Source: Oscillatoriaceae cyanobacterium M7585_C2015_266
GTDB lineage: Bacteria; Cyanobacteriota; Cyanobacteriia; Cyanobacteriales; Oscillatoriaceae
Length of the DNA: 64,000 bases
Assembly: GCA_015295835.1 (NCBI GenBank)
Contig: DVEG01000020.1
Span: 455,709-519,708, forward strand
Direction of reading: 5' to 3'
This document shows, piece after piece, positions 2,336 to 15,376 of this stretch (positions are counted from its first letter, which is position 1; each line of letters begins with the position of its first letter). Made by a program: the position numbers and the translations under genes. The notes under the pieces were generated by a model. It was not told where the DNA came from. It saw only the letters and a program-made list of their open reading frames with translations, and searched no databases.

Positions 2336-2377
2336 TGGCGTGCTCCCTCTTGCGGGTTGCTTGGTTTGTTTTCCCTC

Positions 2378-2671
2378 CTACTCCTGTGTCTTGGCTTTAT
2401 TCTCATCCTTTTGAGCTTCCTCAGCCTTGCCCTCTATTTGCGCTTTAACCCTTTTCAGAATATCCTGCTCTTTCAAGAACACAATTTCTTTTCCGCGAGC
2501 AGGTGTTCCTTTGCGGCTCGTCAGGTTATTCGTAGGGCGCACCTCTGGCTGTGTAATTCCCTTGAGCGCTTCCCGCCCGATAGCAAACCCCCAAGAGCCA
2601 CTCACCATACCTGCTGCAAACATGAGGGCGAGCAGGAGGAATGTCAGCGCCACAGTAGGATTGAATTTCAT
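2378..2671 (-). CDS. Small conserved membrane protein of unknown function
   Basis: This 97-residue protein has one N-terminal transmembrane segment (about residues 8-30). A basic linker follows, then a highly charged C-terminal tail rich in Lys, Glu and Gln that is probably helical. I do not recognise a catalytic domain. The hydrophobic start could be a signal anchor with the tail facing either the cytoplasm or the periplasm. It sits just upstream of the CNNM/CorC gene on the same strand, 42 bp away, so a shared transcript is plausible. The large overlapping open frame on the other strand has no family features and was not called. Confidence 0.6.
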   Translation of the reverse strand: MKFNPTVALTFLLLALMFAAGMVSGSWGFAIGREALKGITQPEVRPTNNLTSRKGTPARGKEIVFLKEQDILKRVKAQIEGKAEEAQKDENKAKTQE

Positions 2672-2926
2672 AGTTTTTGCGATGATATGGCCAAAAAACG
2701 AGAGGCTGCACTAATATACATTATTGTAGTTTCTAAGTTTTTGCATTGCCTCCGGGAATCTACTCCCTACCACTATACCCCCGCTGCCAACTCATGCTAT
2801 ACTTACTTGTACAAGCCTAAACAGCAAAAAAGTGGCCTTTCTGGGCGTACTGGGCAAGCGCCTAGATTCAATAGTCAAAGAATTGACAATCTACTACTTA
2901 TCGGTTAATCTAATAGACACATACAA

Positions 2927-2999
2927 CGGCGGTTGGCCGAGCGGTTGAGGCAGCGAACTCATAATTCGCCATAGGCAGGTTCGACTCCTGCACTGCCGA
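2927..2999 (+). tRNA. tRNA with CAT anticodon, probably tRNA-Ile2 (lysidine type)
   Basis: The sequence folds into a full cloverleaf. The 7-bp acceptor stem pairs CGGCGGT with ACTGCCG, and the D stem is GCC/GGC. The anticodon stem GCGAA/TTCGC encloses loop CTCATAA, with the anticodon at 2960-2962. The variable loop has five bases, the T arm is GCAGG-TTCGACT-CCTGC, and the discriminator is A. CCA is not encoded. A CAT anticodon can belong to tRNA-Met or to tRNA-Ile read after lysidine modification. The D-arm and anticodon arm resemble plastid trnI-CAU more than elongator tRNA-Met, and a second CAT tRNA near 49.6 kb looks like tRNA-Met. Isotype is therefore inference; the tRNA itself is clear. 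Confidence 0.85.
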
Positions 3000-3365
3000 T
3001 TTATACAAGTTCAACCTATTTTTTTAATTCCCACCGGCATTTTCTCGCTGCTATTTTCGAGAGCAAAAAAGTTACCTTGCTCACCGCTCACCGATTCAAA
3101 AGCAAAGTCAAAAATTAATTTTCTCAGGAGAATTTTTGTTAACTTAATCCAATGTAATAATAATGTAATAGCCGCCAGCCTAAAAATGGTCTCACAGACG
3201 CTGTGATGGTTGGCCCTCGATAAGATAAAATTCGAGTATGTTAAAATAACATCCTTCAGCTAGCATGCTAGAGTCTAACCTTTGAGATGAGAGAGGAAAC
3301 AAAAGCCAATTCCAGAAAAAAATAATGGTGCTAATTGGAAAAATGTCAAGCAGGTGAAAAAGCCC
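3000..3365. other. Intergenic leader of the FkbH/PCP gene pair
   Basis: No convincing gene is present in this roughly 365-bp spacer. It holds a perfect 12-bp palindrome, CTAGCATGCTAG, at 3260-3271 and generally AT-rich sequence. The promoter of the downstream pair must lie here. I could not pick a firm -35/-10 pair. A Shine-Dalgarno-like AGGTGA lies at 3352-3357. Confidence 0.5.
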
Positions 3366-6300
3366 ATGCAGCAAAAAATCGCCATCACAGCAACCTTCAC
3401 CGCCGAGCCAGTCGAGGAATCTCTTGCATTTTGGCTTAAACAACTCGATATCCCTTATCAAATAAACTTCGCCCCTTACAACCAAGTCTTTCAACAATTA
3501 TTCGATCCTAATAGCCTACTATCTCAAAACCAGAAAGGATTAAATGTAATTTTAATAAGGCTTGAAGACTGGGAAAGACAAGAAGAAAAACCTCAGTTAA
3601 GGCAACCGTTGCACCAAGAAACGATAAATAACATAGAAAGAAATGTTAGAGATTTAGCGAGCGCCCTAAAAGGAGCAGCTGCAGCCTCACCAACACCTCA
3701 GCTAGTCTGTATATGCCCAGCTTCACCCTCTGCCCTTGCCGACTTGCAGCGACAAACATTCTTCAAACAAATGGAAGACTGGTTAAAATCAGAATTCCAA
3801 AATCAAAGCAACATCTATATAGTAACACCCGACGAATTAGCAGCAACCTACCCAGTTGGCAAATATTACGATCCATATGGAGACGAACTGGGGCATATTC
3901 CCTATACACCAACTTTTTTTACCGCCTTGGGCACCCTCATAGCTAGAAAACTTTATGCCCTTACCAATCCGCCTTACAAAGTAATCGTTCTCGATTGTGA
4001 TCAAACCCTGTGGAAAGGTGTTTGCGGAGAAGACGGAGCTTTAGGAATAGAAATCGATCCTCCCCGCCGTGCACTGCAAGAATTCATAGTAGCACAAAAC
4101 GAAGCCGGGATGCTAGTTTGTTTATGCAGTAAAAATAACGAAGAAGATGTCATCGAAGTCTTCGAGCGGCGCACCGATATGCTCTTAACACGCGCTCGCA
4201 TAATTTCCTGGCGCATCAACTGGCTACCCAAATCAGAAAACATTAAATCTCTTGCTAAAGAATTAAACCTTGGGCTAGATAGCTTCATCTTCATCGATGA
4301 CAATCCCGTCGAATGCGCCGAAGTGCAAGCCAACTGCCCACAAGTACTCACCCTACAGCTCCCCGTAGAAAGCGACATTCCCAAATTTCTCAAACACGTC
4401 TGGGCATTTGATCATCTGAAAGTCACCGAAGAAGACAAAAAACGAACCGCCCTATATCAAGAAAATGTCAAGCGCGAACAATTTCGCAACTCTGCTGCCA
4501 GCTTAGAACAATTTCTAGAAGGATTATGTCTAGAAATAGACATTTCCGAAATGTTGCCACATCAACTGCCCAGAGTTTCCCAACTGACGCAACGAACTAA
4601 CCAATTTAACTTTACCACCATTCGACGCTCAGAGAGCGAAATTCAACAGCTAATTCAATCTAATTTTGAAATTCTCACCGTTTCAGTACGCGATCGCTTT
4701 GGCGATTACGGCTTAGTTGGCGTCATAATTTTCAAAAGCGATTCCGAAACCTTAAAAGTCGATACCTTCCTTCTGAGCTGCCGTGCTTTAGGGCGAGGAG
4801 TCGAACACAAAATGCTCGCCAAACTTGGAAAAATCGCAGAAGAACGCCATCTTACCCACATAGAACTTTATTACAATCCCACCAAAAAAAATCAACCCGC
4901 CCTCAACTTTCTAGAAAGCGTAGCAGCATCATTTAAACAGCCAACAGCCGAAGGCTTATGCTTCCGCTTACCAAAAGAAGTTGCCGCTCAAGTCAGCTAC
5001 AAACCAACAACATCAAAAACAGACGATACACCACTCCCAGAAATCATCGACAAATCCCCTCAAATACCTGCTTCTCAAATCGTCTCCAAACACCGCACCC
5101 TACTCCTAATTGCCAACGAACTAAATGACGTCGAACAAATACTCAAACAGATAGAATTACAAAAGCGGCTCTCTAAAATTGAAAAACCAACAGCTTTTCT
5201 AGAGCCCCAAACACATTGGCAAAAAGAAATAGCAGAAATATGGAAAGAAATTCTGGGAATAGATAAAGTAAGCAGAAAAGATAACTTTTTTGGGCTTGGG
5301 GGAGATTCACTGCAAGTTTATGAGCTGCTGTTTCAAATAAGGGAAAAATATAAAATAGACTTAGAAATAGAGTTTATATTTACAAAAAACCTAGAGGAGT
5401 TAGCAGCAAAAATAGAAGAAAAGCAGAATTTATACGAACAAAAAGTACAGGCAGAAACAGAAATAGCAGAGATTTTACAAAAAATAGAGGGGCTATCAGA
5501 AGAGGAAGCACGAAATACAGTCGAGCAAAAAATAAATGAGCTGCTAAATTGGAAAACAGCGGCAAGCGAGAATAATTTATATTACTGCTGTGCAGATATA
5601 GAAAGAGTGCCAGTGGGGCATAACGGAGAGTTGGTTTACTCCAGGATCACAGGTTCAAAGCAAATATTAAAGTCGGAAATAGCCGAGATGATATCTGAGT
5701 GCCAACAGTTTAAAACACTAGCCGAACACGCAAGGGAAATTAGTAGTACGAAACGATACAGTTTAAGCTATTCAGAAGCATTACAACAACTATCAGAACT
5801 AGCAAAGGCAGGATTTTTGATTTCACAACAGCAGATAATAGATAAATGGAAAAACTCGGAAGAAATACCCAGCACTGAAAACATAATAGCGTCGGTGGGG
5901 CTCATAACTTGCAATCGAATAGATGGATTAAAACGCGCCCTCAGCAGTTATATCGAAAACTGTTTGCAATACGAGAGAAAGAATGATTTTGTCGTAGTAG
6001 ACGATTCGGCAAACCCACAGACGCGAAATAGCTACCGGCAAATGCTGCGAGCGCTCAAAAATAAGTACGGCGTCAAAATTTACTACGGCGGTTTAGAAGA
6101 AAAGCAGCACTTCGCGAAAGCACTAATTAAAACAGGAGAATTACCGCCAGAAATAGTTAATTTTGCATTATTCGACGTAGAAAAATCCGGTGTTTCTCCG
6201 GGAGCAAATCGTAACGCTCTCACCCTGCACTGCGTGGGTGATATGATTTTCAGCGCCGACGACGATACAGTATGCCGCTTAGTAGCATCTCCAAAATTAA

Positions 6301-7412
6301 AAAGCGGCTTGAGCTTTAAAGCTGGTGGCGATCCATCTGAATACTGGGTATTTCGCGATCGCCAAACCGCCCTCCAGTCTGTTACCTTTACTGATATCAA
6401 CCTCCTCGGCTCTCACGAGCAACTGCTAGGCAAAAATATCATTACCATTTTCAAAACCTTTGCCAATAGTGACACCCCCGATTTCAACCAAATCAATACA
6501 CCCTTCCTGCGCAGATTACTTTCCGGCAACGGCAGAGTCTTAGTTTCCTTTAACGGGCTAGTCGGAGATTGCGGCTGGGGAGCACCCTTTGGTTTTTGGG
6601 GAGCACCCTTGGGTTATTTATTATTCGCTGGCGAATCCCACGAGCGGTTAGTGCGCTCAGAAACAGACTATCGCGCTGCCCTAACCAGTCGAGACATATT
6701 GCGCGTCGTCAATCAAACTTGCATTAGTGACGACAGCTTCGGCATGACTACTTTTTTAGGGTTAGACAATCGCCAACTCCTGCCGCCATTCCTACCAGTC
6801 AGACGCGGACAAGATTTAATTTTTGCAAATAGTGTGTGGAAGTGCTTTCCAGAAGCATTTTTCGGGCACCTGCCGTGGGCATTGCTGCATGAGCCGGTAG
6901 AAACGCGAAAATTCTGGTCTGGTGAAATTTTCAGAACGGCTTCTAGTTTTGATACTGCTAAACTAATTATTGAATGTGTCAAATCCTGCCAATTCGGTAG
7001 TAGTGTTCAGAAAACAGGCGCAGAAAGAATGCGTGCTCTGGGTACTCACCTAATTGAACTCGGCTCAATGCCCCAGGCTGATTTTGAAGAGTTTGTTAGA
7101 TTACAAGTATGGCGAGCGCACAGTTCTTTTATCTTCTTAATGGAAGAAAGACTAAAAGCTTGCCAGGAATTCCCCGCATTTTGGGCTAATGACATTAAAA
7201 AATATATAGACCTTTTGAGCAAATCCCTAATCAGAGATGATTATCTCGTACCACTAGATCTCGTGGAAGGGCGTACCCTTGACGAAGCCCGCGAACTTGC
7301 CCAGCGTCTGGTTCTCAAATTTGGCCAGCTCCTCTACTACTGGCCCGATATTGTTGCAGTTACGAAAAAATTGCGGCAGCGAAATCAGCGATTGGCAATA
7401 GATCGTTTTTAA
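3366..7412 (+). CDS. FkbH-type HAD / GNAT-like / PCP / PqqD-like / glycosyltransferase-like multidomain protein
   Basis: The protein has 1348 residues from the ATG at 3366; AGGTGA at 3352-3357 supports this over the GTG at 3354. An N-terminal region (1-190) leads into an FkbH-like HAD domain with LDCDQTLWKGVCGEDG (D210, D212), CSKNNEEDV and FIDDNP (D311, D312). A GNAT-like FkbH tail follows (about 350-520). Next comes a peptidyl carrier protein whose phosphopantetheine serine is S648 in LGGDSL. A helical linker leads to a PqqD/RRE-like winged-helix segment (about 735-825). The last part (about 844-1340) resembles a GT-A glycosyltransferase, with VGLITCNR and a SADDDT (D965-D967) metal motif. 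Known FkbH enzymes load a glyceryl unit from 1,3-bisphosphoglycerate onto a carrier protein. No adenylation domain is present. The second assembly-line gene follows after 82 bp. The sugar-transfer role and the product are inference. Confidence 0.85.
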   Translation: MQQKIAITATFTAEPVEESLAFWLKQLDIPYQINFAPYNQVFQQLFDPNSLLSQNQKGLNVILIRLEDWERQEEKPQLRQPLHQETINNIERNVRDLASALKGAAAASPTPQLVCICPASPSALADLQRQTFFKQMEDWLKSEFQNQSNIYIVTPDELAATYPVGKYYDPYGDELGHIPYTPTFFTALGTLIARKLYALTNPPYKVIVLDCDQTLWKGVCGEDGALGIEIDPPRRALQEFIVAQNEAGMLVCLCSKNNEEDVIEVFERRTDMLLTRARIISWRINWLPKSENIKSLAKELNLGLDSFIFIDDNPVECAEVQANCPQVLTLQLPVESDIPKFLKHVWAFDHLKVTEEDKKRTALYQENVKREQFRNSAASLEQFLEGLCLEIDISEMLPHQLPRVSQLTQRTNQFNFTTIRRSESEIQQLIQSNFEILTVSVRDRFGDYGLVGVIIFKSDSETLKVDTFLLSCRALGRGVEHKMLAKLGKIAEERHLTHIELYYNPTKKNQPALNFLESVAASFKQPTAEGLCFRLPKEVAAQVSYKPTTSKTDDTPLPEIIDKSPQIPASQIVSKHRTLLLIANELNDVEQILKQIELQKRLSKIEKPTAFLEPQTHWQKEIAEIWKEILGIDKVSRKDNFFGLGGDSLQVYELLFQIREKYKIDLEIEFIFTKNLEELAAKIEEKQNLYEQKVQAETEIAEILQKIEGLSEEEARNTVEQKINELLNWKTAASENNLYYCCADIERVPVGHNGELVYSRITGSKQILKSEIAEMISECQQFKTLAEHAREISSTKRYSLSYSEALQQLSELAKAGFLISQQQIIDKWKNSEEIPSTENIIASVGLITCNRIDGLKRALSSYIENCLQYERKNDFVVVDDSANPQTRNSYRQMLRALKNKYGVKIYYGGLEEKQHFAKALIKTGELPPEIVNFALFDVEKSGVSPGANRNALTLHCVGDMIFSADDDTVCRLVASPKLKSGLSFKAGGDPSEYWVFRDRQTALQSVTFTDINLLGSHEQLLGKNIITIFKTFANSDTPDFNQINTPFLRRLLSGNGRVLVSFNGLVGDCGWGAPFGFWGAPLGYLLFAGESHERLVRSETDYRAALTSRDILRVVNQTCISDDSFGMTTFLGLDNRQLLPPFLPVRRGQDLIFANSVWKCFPEAFFGHLPWALLHEPVETRKFWSGEIFRTASSFDTAKLIIECVKSCQFGSSVQKTGAERMRALGTHLIELGSMPQADFEEFVRLQVWRAHSSFIFLMEERLKACQEFPAFWANDIKKYIDLLSKSLIRDDYLVPLDLVEGRTLDEARELAQRLVLKFGQLLYYWPDIVAVTKKLRQRNQRLAIDRF

Positions 7413-7494
7413 CTATTTTATTCTAAAATCTTTATTCTAAAAATCAGGGTGACTCTCAAATCAACAATTCTTATTTAAGAATTTTTTAAAAATT

Positions 7495-10014
7495 ATGGCA
7501 AATATTGAAAAAATTGCAACACTTTCTGCCAATAAACGAGAACTATTTGAACTGTTATTACAAGAAAAAGGATTAAATTTATCTTGGATTCAAACCATCC
7601 CCCACAGACAAAACGTTCAGCGATCGCCCCTCTCTTTTGCACAAACAAGAATCTGGTCAAAAATTATAAATAACACAATTTCCGTAAATAACATCAGTAT
7701 AGCTATACGCATCATCGGCATACTAAATACAGCCGCTTTAGAGGAGAGCCTGAATACCATCATACAACGTCACGAAGTGCTGCGAACAAGCTTTCAAGAC
7801 GAAAATGGCTGCGCAATGCAAATTATTCACGCCAATGCCGATTTTAAACTGTCAATTTTAGATTGTACAGCAGTAGCAAGTGACGAATTGCAAATTCAAA
7901 ATTTACTGCGCGCAGAAGCAGAGAAGCAGTTTAATTTGGCAGAATCTCCATTAATGCGAGGCAGCTTAGTAAAAATTAGCGAGCGCCAACACTTCTTATT
8001 ATTAACACTTCACCCACTTGTCGCTGATTTTTACTCTCTAGGCATACTGTTGCGGGAAATAGCAACCCTCTACGAAGCATTTTGCAACCAAAAACCCTCC
8101 CCTCTCCCCTCTCTCCCCATTCAATATGCCGATTTCGCACGTTGGCAGCGACTATCACTACAGGGGAAAATTTTAGAACAAGAACTTCTCTATTGGAAAC
8201 AGCAACTTGACGGTTATTGCACTCTACTGCACCTGCCCACAAATCGAAAGCAACCGACAACTCAAAACTCCCGCGCTGGTAAGCAATCTTTAGAGATACC
8301 CCTCACCCTAACTCATTCTATACGCTGGCTGTGCCGAGCAGAAGGCGTCACCTTATTTATTACTTTATTAACGGTATTTTTCATATTACTATACCAATAT
8401 AGTGACAAAAAAGATATTCTGGTGGCGTCTCCTTTTGCTAACCGTAATCGCAGAGAAGTCACAGGGCTTATAGGCAGTTTTGCTAGTCTATTAGGTTTGC
8501 GTATCGAGCTTTCAGGAAATCCGACATTTCGCGAAATGCTCAGCAGAGTGCGAGCCCTCGTGGCAGAAGCATACGCCCATCAAGATTTATCCTTAGAACA
8601 AGTAGTAGATTTTCTTAATCTTAGTCACGGGCGGCTGACTCCGCAAGTAATGTTTGCCATTAAAAAAATACCGCTGTTACAGCCAGAACAAATACCAGGG
8701 TTAACCATAAGTTTTCTAGAGCTAGACAGCGAGACAACAAACTTTGATTTAGTATTGCTAGTGGAAGAAGGCGAAAAATTGAAGGCTGTATTAAAATACC
8801 GCGCGGAATTGTTTGATGAGCAGACTATTTCGGAAATGCTTGAGCGTTTCCAAATACTGCTGGAAAAAATCATCGCCAACCCGATGCAGACACTTTCAGA
8901 ACTATTAGGGCGGATAGAAAATACTGAATTACAAGGGGAAATAAAACGCGATGAGGAGGCGAGCGCGGATAATTTAGAACGCGAACTAGTCAAAATTTGG
9001 GAAGAAATTTTAGGGGTCGAATCTGTAGGAGTAAAAGACAATTTCTTTGAACTAGGCGGAGACTCTTTATTAGCCGTGCGCCTGTTTTCCCAAATTCGGG
9101 AAAAATTTAATCGTAATCTCCCCCTAGCAACACTATTTCAAGCCCCCACTGTCGAGCTACTCGCCCAAATTATTCGCCAGCAAGAATGGTTAGCGCCTTG
9201 GAATTCCTTAGTGAGAATTCAAAGCGGCGGAAAAAGACGAGCTTTATTCTGTATACATGCCCTTGGCGGAAACGTTCTTTCCTATAAGCCTGTCGCCACT
9301 TACTTGGGTGAAGATATTCCCGTTTACGGGCTACAATCGCGGGGTTTAGATGGCAAACAGGAACCCCACACCAGTATTGAAGAAATGGCAACTGACTATA
9401 TCAAAGAAATACGAACTGTACAGCCGGAGGGGCCATACATGTTTGTTGGTCACTCTTTAGGAGGAGTTATTGCTTTCGAGATGGCTCAGCAATTAGTTCG
9501 GGCAGGAGAAAAAGTATCTTTGCTTGCGGTTCTTGATACTTATAGCCCTACTTTTAAGTCGGAAGTACCCCCTGCTAGCTATCAATTAAAAATTCACAAA
9601 TATAATCTTTCGCGACTTGCAATCAGAGATAAAATAATTTATATTTTGGAGCGGGTTTGGTGGAAGGTAGAAGATTTAATCGCAAAAATAGCAGATAAAT
9701 TGCATTTGAAAACAGGAGGAAAAACAGAAGAATTGCCTGAACATTTACAGCGGATCGAAGAGGCAAATCGCCAGGCGGTACATAATTACAAACCACAAGT
9801 TTATCCAGGGCGGTTAACGTTATTACGAGCGCTCGAACGCCCCACGCGCAAGTATTTCGATCCGCTAATGGGGTGGGGCGAATTGGTAGCTGGCGGAGTG
9901 GAAATTGTTGAAGTTCCTGGGCATCACAAAACTCTAATTTTAGAACCCCGTGTCCGCATTTTGGCTAAAAAATTGCGTGAATGCATCGATAAGGCAGAAG
10001 CGCAGCCAGAATGA
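7495..10014 (+). CDS. NRPS-like protein: degenerate condensation - PCP - thioesterase
   Basis: The 839-residue protein has a condensation domain (about 40-460), a carrier protein (about 490-565, S524 in LGGDSL) and a type I thioesterase (about 580-830). The thioesterase has the GHSLGG nucleophile S654, a likely acid D681 in LDTYSP, and H810 or H811 in PGHHKTL. The condensation motif normally reads HHxxxDG. Here it reads H173-P-L-V-A-D178-F, so the catalytic second histidine is proline and the glycine is phenylalanine. The domain may bind or position acyl groups rather than form a bond, or use another mechanism. No adenylation domain is present. The gene lies 82 bp after the FkbH/PCP gene in the same direction and converges on ygfZ. 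The two proteins probably act as one assembly line, with the thioesterase releasing the product. Confidence 0.88.
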   Translation: MANIEKIATLSANKRELFELLLQEKGLNLSWIQTIPHRQNVQRSPLSFAQTRIWSKIINNTISVNNISIAIRIIGILNTAALEESLNTIIQRHEVLRTSFQDENGCAMQIIHANADFKLSILDCTAVASDELQIQNLLRAEAEKQFNLAESPLMRGSLVKISERQHFLLLTLHPLVADFYSLGILLREIATLYEAFCNQKPSPLPSLPIQYADFARWQRLSLQGKILEQELLYWKQQLDGYCTLLHLPTNRKQPTTQNSRAGKQSLEIPLTLTHSIRWLCRAEGVTLFITLLTVFFILLYQYSDKKDILVASPFANRNRREVTGLIGSFASLLGLRIELSGNPTFREMLSRVRALVAEAYAHQDLSLEQVVDFLNLSHGRLTPQVMFAIKKIPLLQPEQIPGLTISFLELDSETTNFDLVLLVEEGEKLKAVLKYRAELFDEQTISEMLERFQILLEKIIANPMQTLSELLGRIENTELQGEIKRDEEASADNLERELVKIWEEILGVESVGVKDNFFELGGDSLLAVRLFSQIREKFNRNLPLATLFQAPTVELLAQIIRQQEWLAPWNSLVRIQSGGKRRALFCIHALGGNVLSYKPVATYLGEDIPVYGLQSRGLDGKQEPHTSIEEMATDYIKEIRTVQPEGPYMFVGHSLGGVIAFEMAQQLVRAGEKVSLLAVLDTYSPTFKSEVPPASYQLKIHKYNLSRLAIRDKIIYILERVWWKVEDLIAKIADKLHLKTGGKTEELPEHLQRIEEANRQAVHNYKPQVYPGRLTLLRALERPTRKYFDPLMGWGELVAGGVEIVEVPGHHKTLILEPRVRILAKKLRECIDKAEAQPE

Positions 10015-13359: not shown

Positions 13360-13544
13360 AATAGACTCGAAATAAGCAGGTATAAATTTTTTGTCTCTTT
13401 TATCTATTCTTTTAAAAGCATCTTTTCCAACCGATTTACTCCACTCTTTCCGCCACTGCCACCATAATAGACTCGAAATAAGCAGGTATAAATTTTTTGT
13501 CTCTTTTATCTATTCTTTTAAAAGCATCTTTTCCAACCGATTTA
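13333..13544. repeat. Perfect 106-bp tandem duplication
   Basis: Copy one is 13333-13438 and copy two is 13439-13544. They match base for base, and the flanking bases differ (C before copy one, A before copy two). The unit is 106 bp, one more than a multiple of three, so the repeat shifts the reading frame of the minus-strand DUF262 gene. Perfect identity means the event is recent, slippage-generated, or an assembly artefact. Confidence 0.95.
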
Positions 13545-14452
13545 TATATAACATTAATCGTAGATGTAAAAATATTCCTCATTTCATTTTTCTTTTCTTC
13601 ACTTGGGTTTCTATTTTTTGCCATCCATTGATTGAGAAATTGTTTCAAATCATACCCTTTGTATTCTTTCTTCCCTTTATTATCATAATATATTGCCAAA
13701 AATCTTAGTATCATCTCTTGACCATTTGTCTCTTTTGTTTCTATTGGTATCTTCTCTTGCTCTTCTTTCTTTTTTGTTTCTCTCTGTTTTTCTTTTTTTT
13801 CACCATAAAAAATTTCCCTCCACTTTTCTTCATTCTCATCCAATTCCACAATAAGCTCATTAAGAGCTCCATGATAAATACAGGCTCTTATTTCCTGTGG
13901 TTTTAGATTTGTTCCTCCTGTATTCAATCTTTCAAAGATATAGTATATGCCTTGTCTATCTTTTTCCTCCTTCGGTTCTATAATAATAACAGGAAAAGGA
14001 TAATTCTTAAATCTCCGTTGATCTGGAGCTTCTAACTGATCAAATCTTTTACCATTATACTTATCAATAACCCCCTTCAAATTAAAACATTTACTTTTTT
14101 TAAAACGATTTTCGTAAAAATAAACAATGCTTTGTAACCTTTGGTTCCCATCAATCACTATCATTCTTTGATCTTCTTCTTTCGCAAGAAAAAGGGGAGG
14201 AACTGGAAAACCAAGTAACAGTGATTCGATCAACCGTGAAGCTTGTTTGAGCTTCCACACATAACCACGTTGAAATTCGGGAATGTATATTTCTCTTTCT
14301 TTGTATAATTTCACTAAGAACTCTATACTTAAATTTGTAGAGACTACTGACATCTTGAACTGCTCAGGAAGAGAATCGTCATCATCTTCCTCCTCATCTT
14401 CAGTTTGTGTCTGCAGTTCCTCAAGCTCGCTGTTTTGTTCAATTTCGCTCAT
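13436..14452 (-). CDS. DUF262 (ParB-like/GmrS-N type) protein, truncated by frameshift
   Basis: This is a 338-residue open frame with an acidic N terminus and a DUF262 domain. The visible motifs are FQRGYVW (about residue 60), IDGNQRLQSI (about 100) and FERLNTGGTNL (about 175). DUF262 is a ParB/Srx-like nucleotide-binding fold, best known from GmrSD-type modification-dependent restriction and other defence proteins. No DUF1524/HNH nuclease partner is visible here. The frame ends at TAA exactly where a duplicated 106-bp segment begins. Removing one copy would restore about 389 residues. The gene is much more AT-rich than its neighbours and sits beside an IS relic, which suggests acquisition by transfer. 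Whether the truncated protein works is unknown. Confidence 0.8.
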   Translation of the reverse strand: MSEIEQNSELEELQTQTEDEEEDDDDSLPEQFKMSVVSTNLSIEFLVKLYKEREIYIPEFQRGYVWKLKQASRLIESLLLGFPVPPLFLAKEEDQRMIVIDGNQRLQSIVYFYENRFKKSKCFNLKGVIDKYNGKRFDQLEAPDQRRFKNYPFPVIIIEPKEEKDRQGIYYIFERLNTGGTNLKPQEIRACIYHGALNELIVELDENEEKWREIFYGEKKEKQRETKKKEEQEKIPIETKETNGQEMILRFLAIYYDNKGKKEYKGYDLKQFLNQWMAKNRNPSEEKKNEMRNIFTSTINVIYKSVGKDAFKRIDKRDKKFIPAYFESIMVAVAERVE

Positions 14453-14740: not shown

Positions 14741-15376
14741 GAGTCAAGATACCGCTACCGCTTCTACCCCACAAACCAACAAAAGCTACTTTTAGCTAAA
14801 CTGTACGGTTGTGCTAGATGGGTGTGGAATGAAGCGCTTGCTTACTGCCAAGAGGTGGGTAAGTACATCGGGTATAATGCACTGACTAAACGCCTGACAG
14901 TTCCAAAGAAGCAAGTAGAGTGGCTTACTGAGGTATCTAGTGTGGCTTTACAACAAGCGCTCAGAAACCTAGACAGAGCCTGTAGTAATTTCTTCAAGGG
15001 CAAAGGTGCGCCACAATTTAAGAAGAAAAGCAATAGGCAGTCTGTCACTCTCACTAAGTCTAGTTTTTCTCTGCAGGGCAAAAAAGTCTATCTTGCCAAG
15101 ATAGGGGAAATGTCTCCTATTTGGATAAAGGAGTTACCGAGTCAGCCCATTGTGGTAGAAGTGCCGCGAGTGGTAGTATCTGCCAAATTCCCTAGTATCG
15201 GTATTGACTAGGGGATAAAGGTGTTTGCTACCCTAAGTGATGGCACGAAAGCCTATAGCCCTAACTATGCCCCTCTGTATCAGCGTATTGCTCAGCTAAG
15301 CAAGAAACTGGCACGGCAGGTGAAAGGCTCAAAACGCAGAGAGCCAACTTACACGGAGAAACGAGGGTTCTGTTGA
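14741..15376 (+). pseudogene. tnpB: Decayed TnpB (IS200/IS605-family) gene
   Basis: Reading one frame through an internal stop gives a TnpB-like protein. YRYRFYPTNQQKLLLAKLYG and CARWVWNEALAYC match the N terminus, followed by ALQQALRNLDRACSNFF and FKKKSNRQSV. A TAG at 15209-15211 directly follows the RuvC-I aspartate (GID-stop-GIKVFATLSDG). Translation then continues to a TGA at 15374-15376. No good start codon is left, and the C-terminal half with the remaining RuvC residues and the zinc finger is missing. Only an open frame of 129 residues survives (14822-15211). TnpB is an RNA-guided nuclease that helps IS200/IS605 elements persist. This copy cannot be functional. It lies immediately upstream of a broken riboswitch. 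Confidence 0.85.

Follow-up and report, generated by a model that had tools for sequence, protein, structure and literature searches.

What can a pair of NRPS-like genes make when neither of them encodes an adenylation (A) domain, and was the pair built that way? The question is raised by two adjacent genes in the window, a 64,000-nucleotide stretch of an Oscillatoriaceae cyanobacterial genome (contig DVEG01000020.1). With moderate confidence, the pair is best explained as secondarily reduced: it would belong to a cyanobacterial type of NRPS-like pair, FkbH-PCP-RRE-GT plus C-A-PCP-TE, that is itself uncharacterised, and would here load glycerate, probably glycosylate it and release it through the thioesterase (TE), amide formation most likely having been lost. 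Domain content, the missing A domain, the broken motif of the condensation (C) domain, the intact FkbH and TE motifs, and the domain-specific rates are all read from the sequence.

With 1,3-bisphosphoglycerate as donor, FkbH domains charge a carrier protein with a glyceryl unit (PMC8949500, PMC7489565). FkbH starters for glyceric acid units have been proposed in cyanobacterial NRPSs (PMC6520454, PMC8609519), and FkbH in place of an A domain is known in both cyanobacteria and myxobacteria (PMC6520454, PMC8609519, PMC8949500). The features of the present locus are listed in Table 1.

Table 1. Features of the two-gene locus, in window positions.
Feature	Position	Strand	Remarks
Gene 1	3366..7412	+	1348 aa; FkbH-HAD/GNAT - PCP1 - PqqD/RRE fold - GT-A-like; frame open throughout
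FkbH domain (HAD-IIIC core + GNAT-like tail)	3975..4934	+	residues 204-523; TIGR01686 E=1.7e-97
PCP1	5196..5435	+	GGDS, serine 648; PF00550 E=2.2e-11
PqqD/RRE-fold domain	5577..5855	+	AlphaFold pLDDT mostly 57-89; Foldseek fold matches
GT-A-like domain	5877..7409	+	weak PF00535; DDS about 6000-6008, GANRN 6201-6215, DDD about 6258-6266
Gene 2	7495..10014	+	839 aa; degenerate C - [A missing] - PCP2 - TE; frame open throughout
Condensation (C) domain	7621..8904	+	PF00668 E=1.8e-88
Short linker at relatives' A position	8902..8979	+	right side resumes at A-PCP linker; A loss as read from the assembled sequence
PCP2	8959..9180	+	GGDS, serine 524; PF00550 E=6.8e-17
Thioesterase (TE)	9217..9999	+	PF00975 E=2.3e-29; GHSLGG, VLDTYSP, VPGHHKT kept

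The two genes lie on the same strand, separated by 82 bases, and their domains are those named in the preliminary description: FkbH, both PCPs, C and TE are recognized by profile, and the PqqD-like segment by Foldseek. Gene 1 carries the HAD motif DxDxT as DCDQT (residue 210, 3993-4007), so that its FkbH domain belongs to that family by profile and motif alike; the domain is 68-74% identical to those of its relatives, and the FkbH-PCP part as a whole is 51-55% identical to the FkbH-PCP parts of large NRPS-like proteins from other cyanobacteria. The PqqD-like segment has no Pfam match in a profile search. Its predicted structure matches TigE (8vpo, E=8e-4) and, more weakly, TbiB1, PqqD and lasso B1 (E about 0.1-1, probability 0.85-0.99) in Foldseek; as modelled, the segment is a winged-helix PqqD fold.

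The GT-A-like domain was also called in the preliminary description. The DDS, GxNRN and DDD motifs that uphold this call are invariant among homologues; the call is qualified by a Pfam GT2 score (E=0.001-0.005) that lies under the Pfam cut-off and by a Foldseek search with the GT domain alone, which gave no significant PDB match (second model, mean pLDDT 56). Mannosyl-3-phosphoglycerate synthase appeared in that search at E=1.2-1.4 only, and much of the GT is poorly modelled. Over its full length the domain is about 22% identical to rare standalone cyanobacterial proteins of about 482 aa (loci L064, L065, L067, and L071), which are GT-A-like themselves and do not reach the cut-off of any Pfam or NCBIfam family. 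On its weak Pfam scores and motifs, the domain is a probable candidate glycosyltransferase.

Gene 2 is most readily compared with an NRPS termination module of the C-A-PCP-TE type. The PCP serine and the Ser/Asp/His motifs of the TE are present, but the A domain and the HHxxxDG motif of the C domain are not. HHxxxDG is replaced by HPLVADF (8011-8031), with proline in place of the second histidine, and the asterisk with which the C domain had initially been marked is justified.

The initial observation that no A domain exists in the pair or nearby extends to the whole genome, in which no NRPS-type A domain was found. Four AMP-binding genes are present, none of them NRPS-like; one, of 510 aa, was compared with models and scored best with those for malonyl-CoA synthase and acyl-CoA synthetase, below their cut-offs, and for the other three, length was the only criterion. 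All four look like primary-metabolism ligases. The C domain of gene 2 is the only one in the 4.0-Mb genome, and the pair is its sole NRPS-like locus; supply of an A domain by another NRPS of the genome was considered and rejected on these counts. As for carrier activation, an Sfp-type phosphopantetheinyl transferase (PPTase; 246 aa) and an AcpS-size protein are encoded elsewhere in the genome. The neighbours of the pair include queC, a transporter-like gene and ygfZ, among others. Inspection found none of the partners of tetronate or methoxymalonyl pathways (a FabH-like ring-forming enzyme, or dehydrogenases plus an O-methyltransferase) beside the pair, and no NRPS remnants were found in 2336-3365.

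Whether the pair was built without an A domain is answered by its relatives. A search for the same two-gene architecture in other cyanobacterial genomes found gene 1, with identical domain order, in each of the other seven family genomes (G001-G007), and gene 2 with an A domain. In the six family genomes where it is fully readable, gene 2 encodes 1393-1492 aa with the order C-A-PCP-TE and an intact HHxxxDG motif. It adjoins gene 1 in five of these (G001, G002, G004, G005, and G007); in G003 it has been kept (1393 aa, C-A-PCP-TE) though at a site separate from gene 1. G006 has a contig end within gene 2, and the stretch that can be read holds the C motif and an A motif, so the ancestral A domain is supported by six full genes and one partial gene whose PCP and TE are unreadable. 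Synteny with queC (upstream in both the window and G003) and with ygfZ (downstream in the window as well as in G001, G002, G004, and G005) points to one shared genomic locus. Since the family orthologues possess both the A domain and an intact C motif, the A-less layout points to a lineage-specific loss in the window genome and, judged from these sequences, is secondary rather than ancestral. The preliminary description had taken that layout for the design of the system, which the orthologues contradict; glyceryl loading by FkbH, release by the TE and possible glycosylation, which it also proposed, continue to be the best reading.

Further NRPS genes lie upstream of the pair in G001, G002, and G007, where a PPTase is also adjacent to it; both are absent beside the pair of the window. 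The first of these upstream NRPS genes (L044:13734, L047:1270, and L048:4036 (-)) seems to begin within a C domain and looks as if its N-terminal half were missing. Among the other sampled cyanobacterial genomes, the GT part was found only as the standalone proteins and one weak match to a generic GT, and no further homologues were found in plasmids or in viral contigs; in the homologue sampling the phylum of G442 was represented by two genomes. A metagenome-assembled genome of Cloacimonetes (4.0 Mb) has a gene 1 orthologue with a GT about 50% identical, which adjoins a C-A-PCP gene without a TE, followed by another NRPS gene. This occurrence suggests transfer or a mis-binned contig.

Loss of the A domain is accompanied by change in particular partners. 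Rates were estimated for each domain in a comparison of one genome with six others, all of other genera; the topology was fixed and came from three parts of gene 1 (the N-terminus, FkbH, and GT). Relative to the distance between G001 and G002, the terminal branch of the window genome measures 0.29 for FkbH, 0.38 for GT, 0.48 for the N-terminus, 0.53 for PCP2, 0.75 for TE, 1.06 for RRE, 1.95 for C, and 3.73 for PCP1. In a likelihood test in which only the branch of the window genome was stretched, domain by domain, PCP1 preferred x12 (2dlnL=59.5) and C preferred x6 (2dlnL=207.5); FkbH and GT preferred x1 and RRE, PCP2, and TE x1.5, with 2dlnL of 4 or less. Acceleration is thus confined to C and PCP1 among the domains tested, and the control genome, G003, gave no stretch above x1.5. 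The divergence of PCP1 is also evident in its identity to orthologues, 28-35% compared with 51-70% among the other genera.

When neutral drift of the C region was simulated, at least four stops arose in every run once identity had fallen to 40-60%; the real C frame has none. The open frame fits selection for read-through to PCP2-TE, and we infer that C and PCP1 tolerate missense change yet must be translated through because GT and PCP2-TE behind them are needed. PCP1 could instead have been replaced by recombination; codon usage in the stretch from PCP1 to RRE (5196-5855) deviates from its surroundings, being rich in ATA and in part poor in C-ending codons. An origin of PCP1 as a copy of PCP2 was rejected; the two are only 36% identical and the tree is long-branched.

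All that follows on catalysis, on sugar and product, and on a role for the RRE fold is inferred from these domains. Because gene 1 lacks a C domain, it is read as the starter. FkbH would take the glyceryl unit from 1,3-bisphosphoglycerate and pass it to a carrier (PCP1, or PCP2 in trans), and the GT-A-like domain would place a sugar on the carrier-bound glyceryl unit. In the relatives, the C domain would join this starter to one amino acid chosen by the A domain, and the TE would release the product; in the window genome, the TE would release (glycosyl)glycerate or a similar small product. The glyceryl acceptor and the sugar donor of this scheme are guesses. With the A domain missing and the C motif broken, amide formation has most likely ceased in the window genome, as far as its sequence indicates. 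It is conceivable, if rather doubtful, that the locus now serves solely to make a small glycosylated glycerate, as a line in which FkbH loads glycerate, the fused GT glycosylates it on the carrier under guidance of the RRE fold, and the TE releases glycosylglycerate, amide formation having been shed here.

The same losses can be read as decay. A functionless remnant of the family NRPS, in which visible decay has so far reached the amide-forming parts alone, would account for the missing A domain, the broken C motif and the strong divergence of PCP1, as well as for the absence of the upstream NRPS genes and adjacent PPTase of G001, G002, and G007 and the position of the pair as the only NRPS-like locus of its genome. 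Against such a remnant, FkbH, GT, PCP2, and TE have undergone no significant excess change and both frames are open; the divergence of C and PCP1 is large, yet the parts translated behind them are constrained, and decay is therefore regarded as unlikely.

It is less probable still that an amide continues to be made, by way of an adenylating enzyme from elsewhere that loads PCP2 in trans. A C-T-TE module served in this manner is known from syringomycin, where SyrB1 provides the A domain for the A-less last module of SyrE (PMC8949500), and PCP2 and TE of the present pair are conserved. Unlike that system, the window genome has yielded no NRPS-type A domain, only the apparent primary-metabolism ligases; in addition, the C motif has a proline at its second histidine position, and PCP1, which presumably donates to C, has diverged more than any other domain. 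The predicted RRE/PqqD fold brings to mind a RiPP-like system, with the fold binding a precursor peptide to which the glyceryl or sugar unit is added, and RRE-GT fusions have been flagged by RRE-Finder as possible new RiPP clusters (PMC7470986). That case is a slim one: no small ORF near the pair, as a candidate precursor peptide, is conserved across genera, the partner encoded by gene 2 is an NRPS termination module, and RRE-like folds are found outside RiPPs too (PMC7470986).

Secondary reduction, the favoured reading, sets the locus beside several known systems. Dysinosin (DysB) and suomilide (SuoB) of cyanobacteria likewise begin with FkbH loading glycerate onto a PCP (PMC6520454, PMC8609519), but C-A modules follow, the A domain is kept, sulfotransferase and methyltransferase functions are present and no RRE-GT occurs in the same protein. 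The cyanopeltolin-type synthetase oci of Planktothrix, a cyanopeptolin synthetase, has a glyceric-acid loading (GA) domain and so resembles the locus in function, starting an NRPS with glycerate (PMC2533009); it has seven NRPS modules and a sulfotransferase. In the myxobacterial vioprolide and cystomanamide synthetases FkbH replaces A in an NRPS module, and cystomanamides are glycosylated (PMC8949500). Their products differ in being lipopeptides, no FkbH-PCP-RRE-GT fusion is described there, and the vioprolide line starts with an acyl-AMP ligase/PKS and has a C domain that forms an ester. The uncharacterised RRE-Finder fusions (PMC7470986) resemble gene 1 in joining an RRE fold to a GT, here with RRE-GT set within an FkbH/PCP protein. 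A further counterpart is the pair of G001-G007, with the same two genes, the same gene 1 order and, in several, the same genomic site, differing in the complete gene 2 (partly readable in G006) and, in three genomes, the NRPS genes upstream.

Each element has been reported singly: FkbH starters, RRE-GT fusions, and C-T-TE ends that lack A and are served in trans (PMC8949500, PMC7470986). Literature searches of open-access papers returned no FkbH, RRE and GT in one protein, no FkbH, PqqD and glycosyltransferase joined in an NRPS, and no lineage with A loss and matching relaxation of C and PCP1; in agreement with the preliminary description, they also returned no characterised system with the exact layout. 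The unusual features are the FkbH-PCP-RRE-GT fusion, which is conserved, and a natural loss of amide-forming parts. If the favoured reading is right, the locus is a natural domain-removal experiment on an NRPS, in which the A domain is missing, its partners C and PCP1 are freed from constraint, and loading, sugar transfer and release are conserved; the roles of PCP1, PCP2, and GT would therefore be directly testable. One protein, conserved across a cyanobacterial family, that combines FkbH, a carrier, an RRE fold, and a GT whose family is in neither Pfam nor NCBIfam points to unstudied chemistry.

Some minor observations concern the surroundings of these genes. On the Cloacimonetes contig (NBMB01000011.1, L021), assigned to a phylum distant from cyanobacteria, the FkbH-PCP-RRE-GT gene is accompanied by a C-A-PCP gene and additional NRPS genes. 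In the window, a short way downstream of this region, lie a low-GC ORF (13436-14452, GC 0.33) and a short ORF (14822-15211) that resembles part of a transposase-associated gene.
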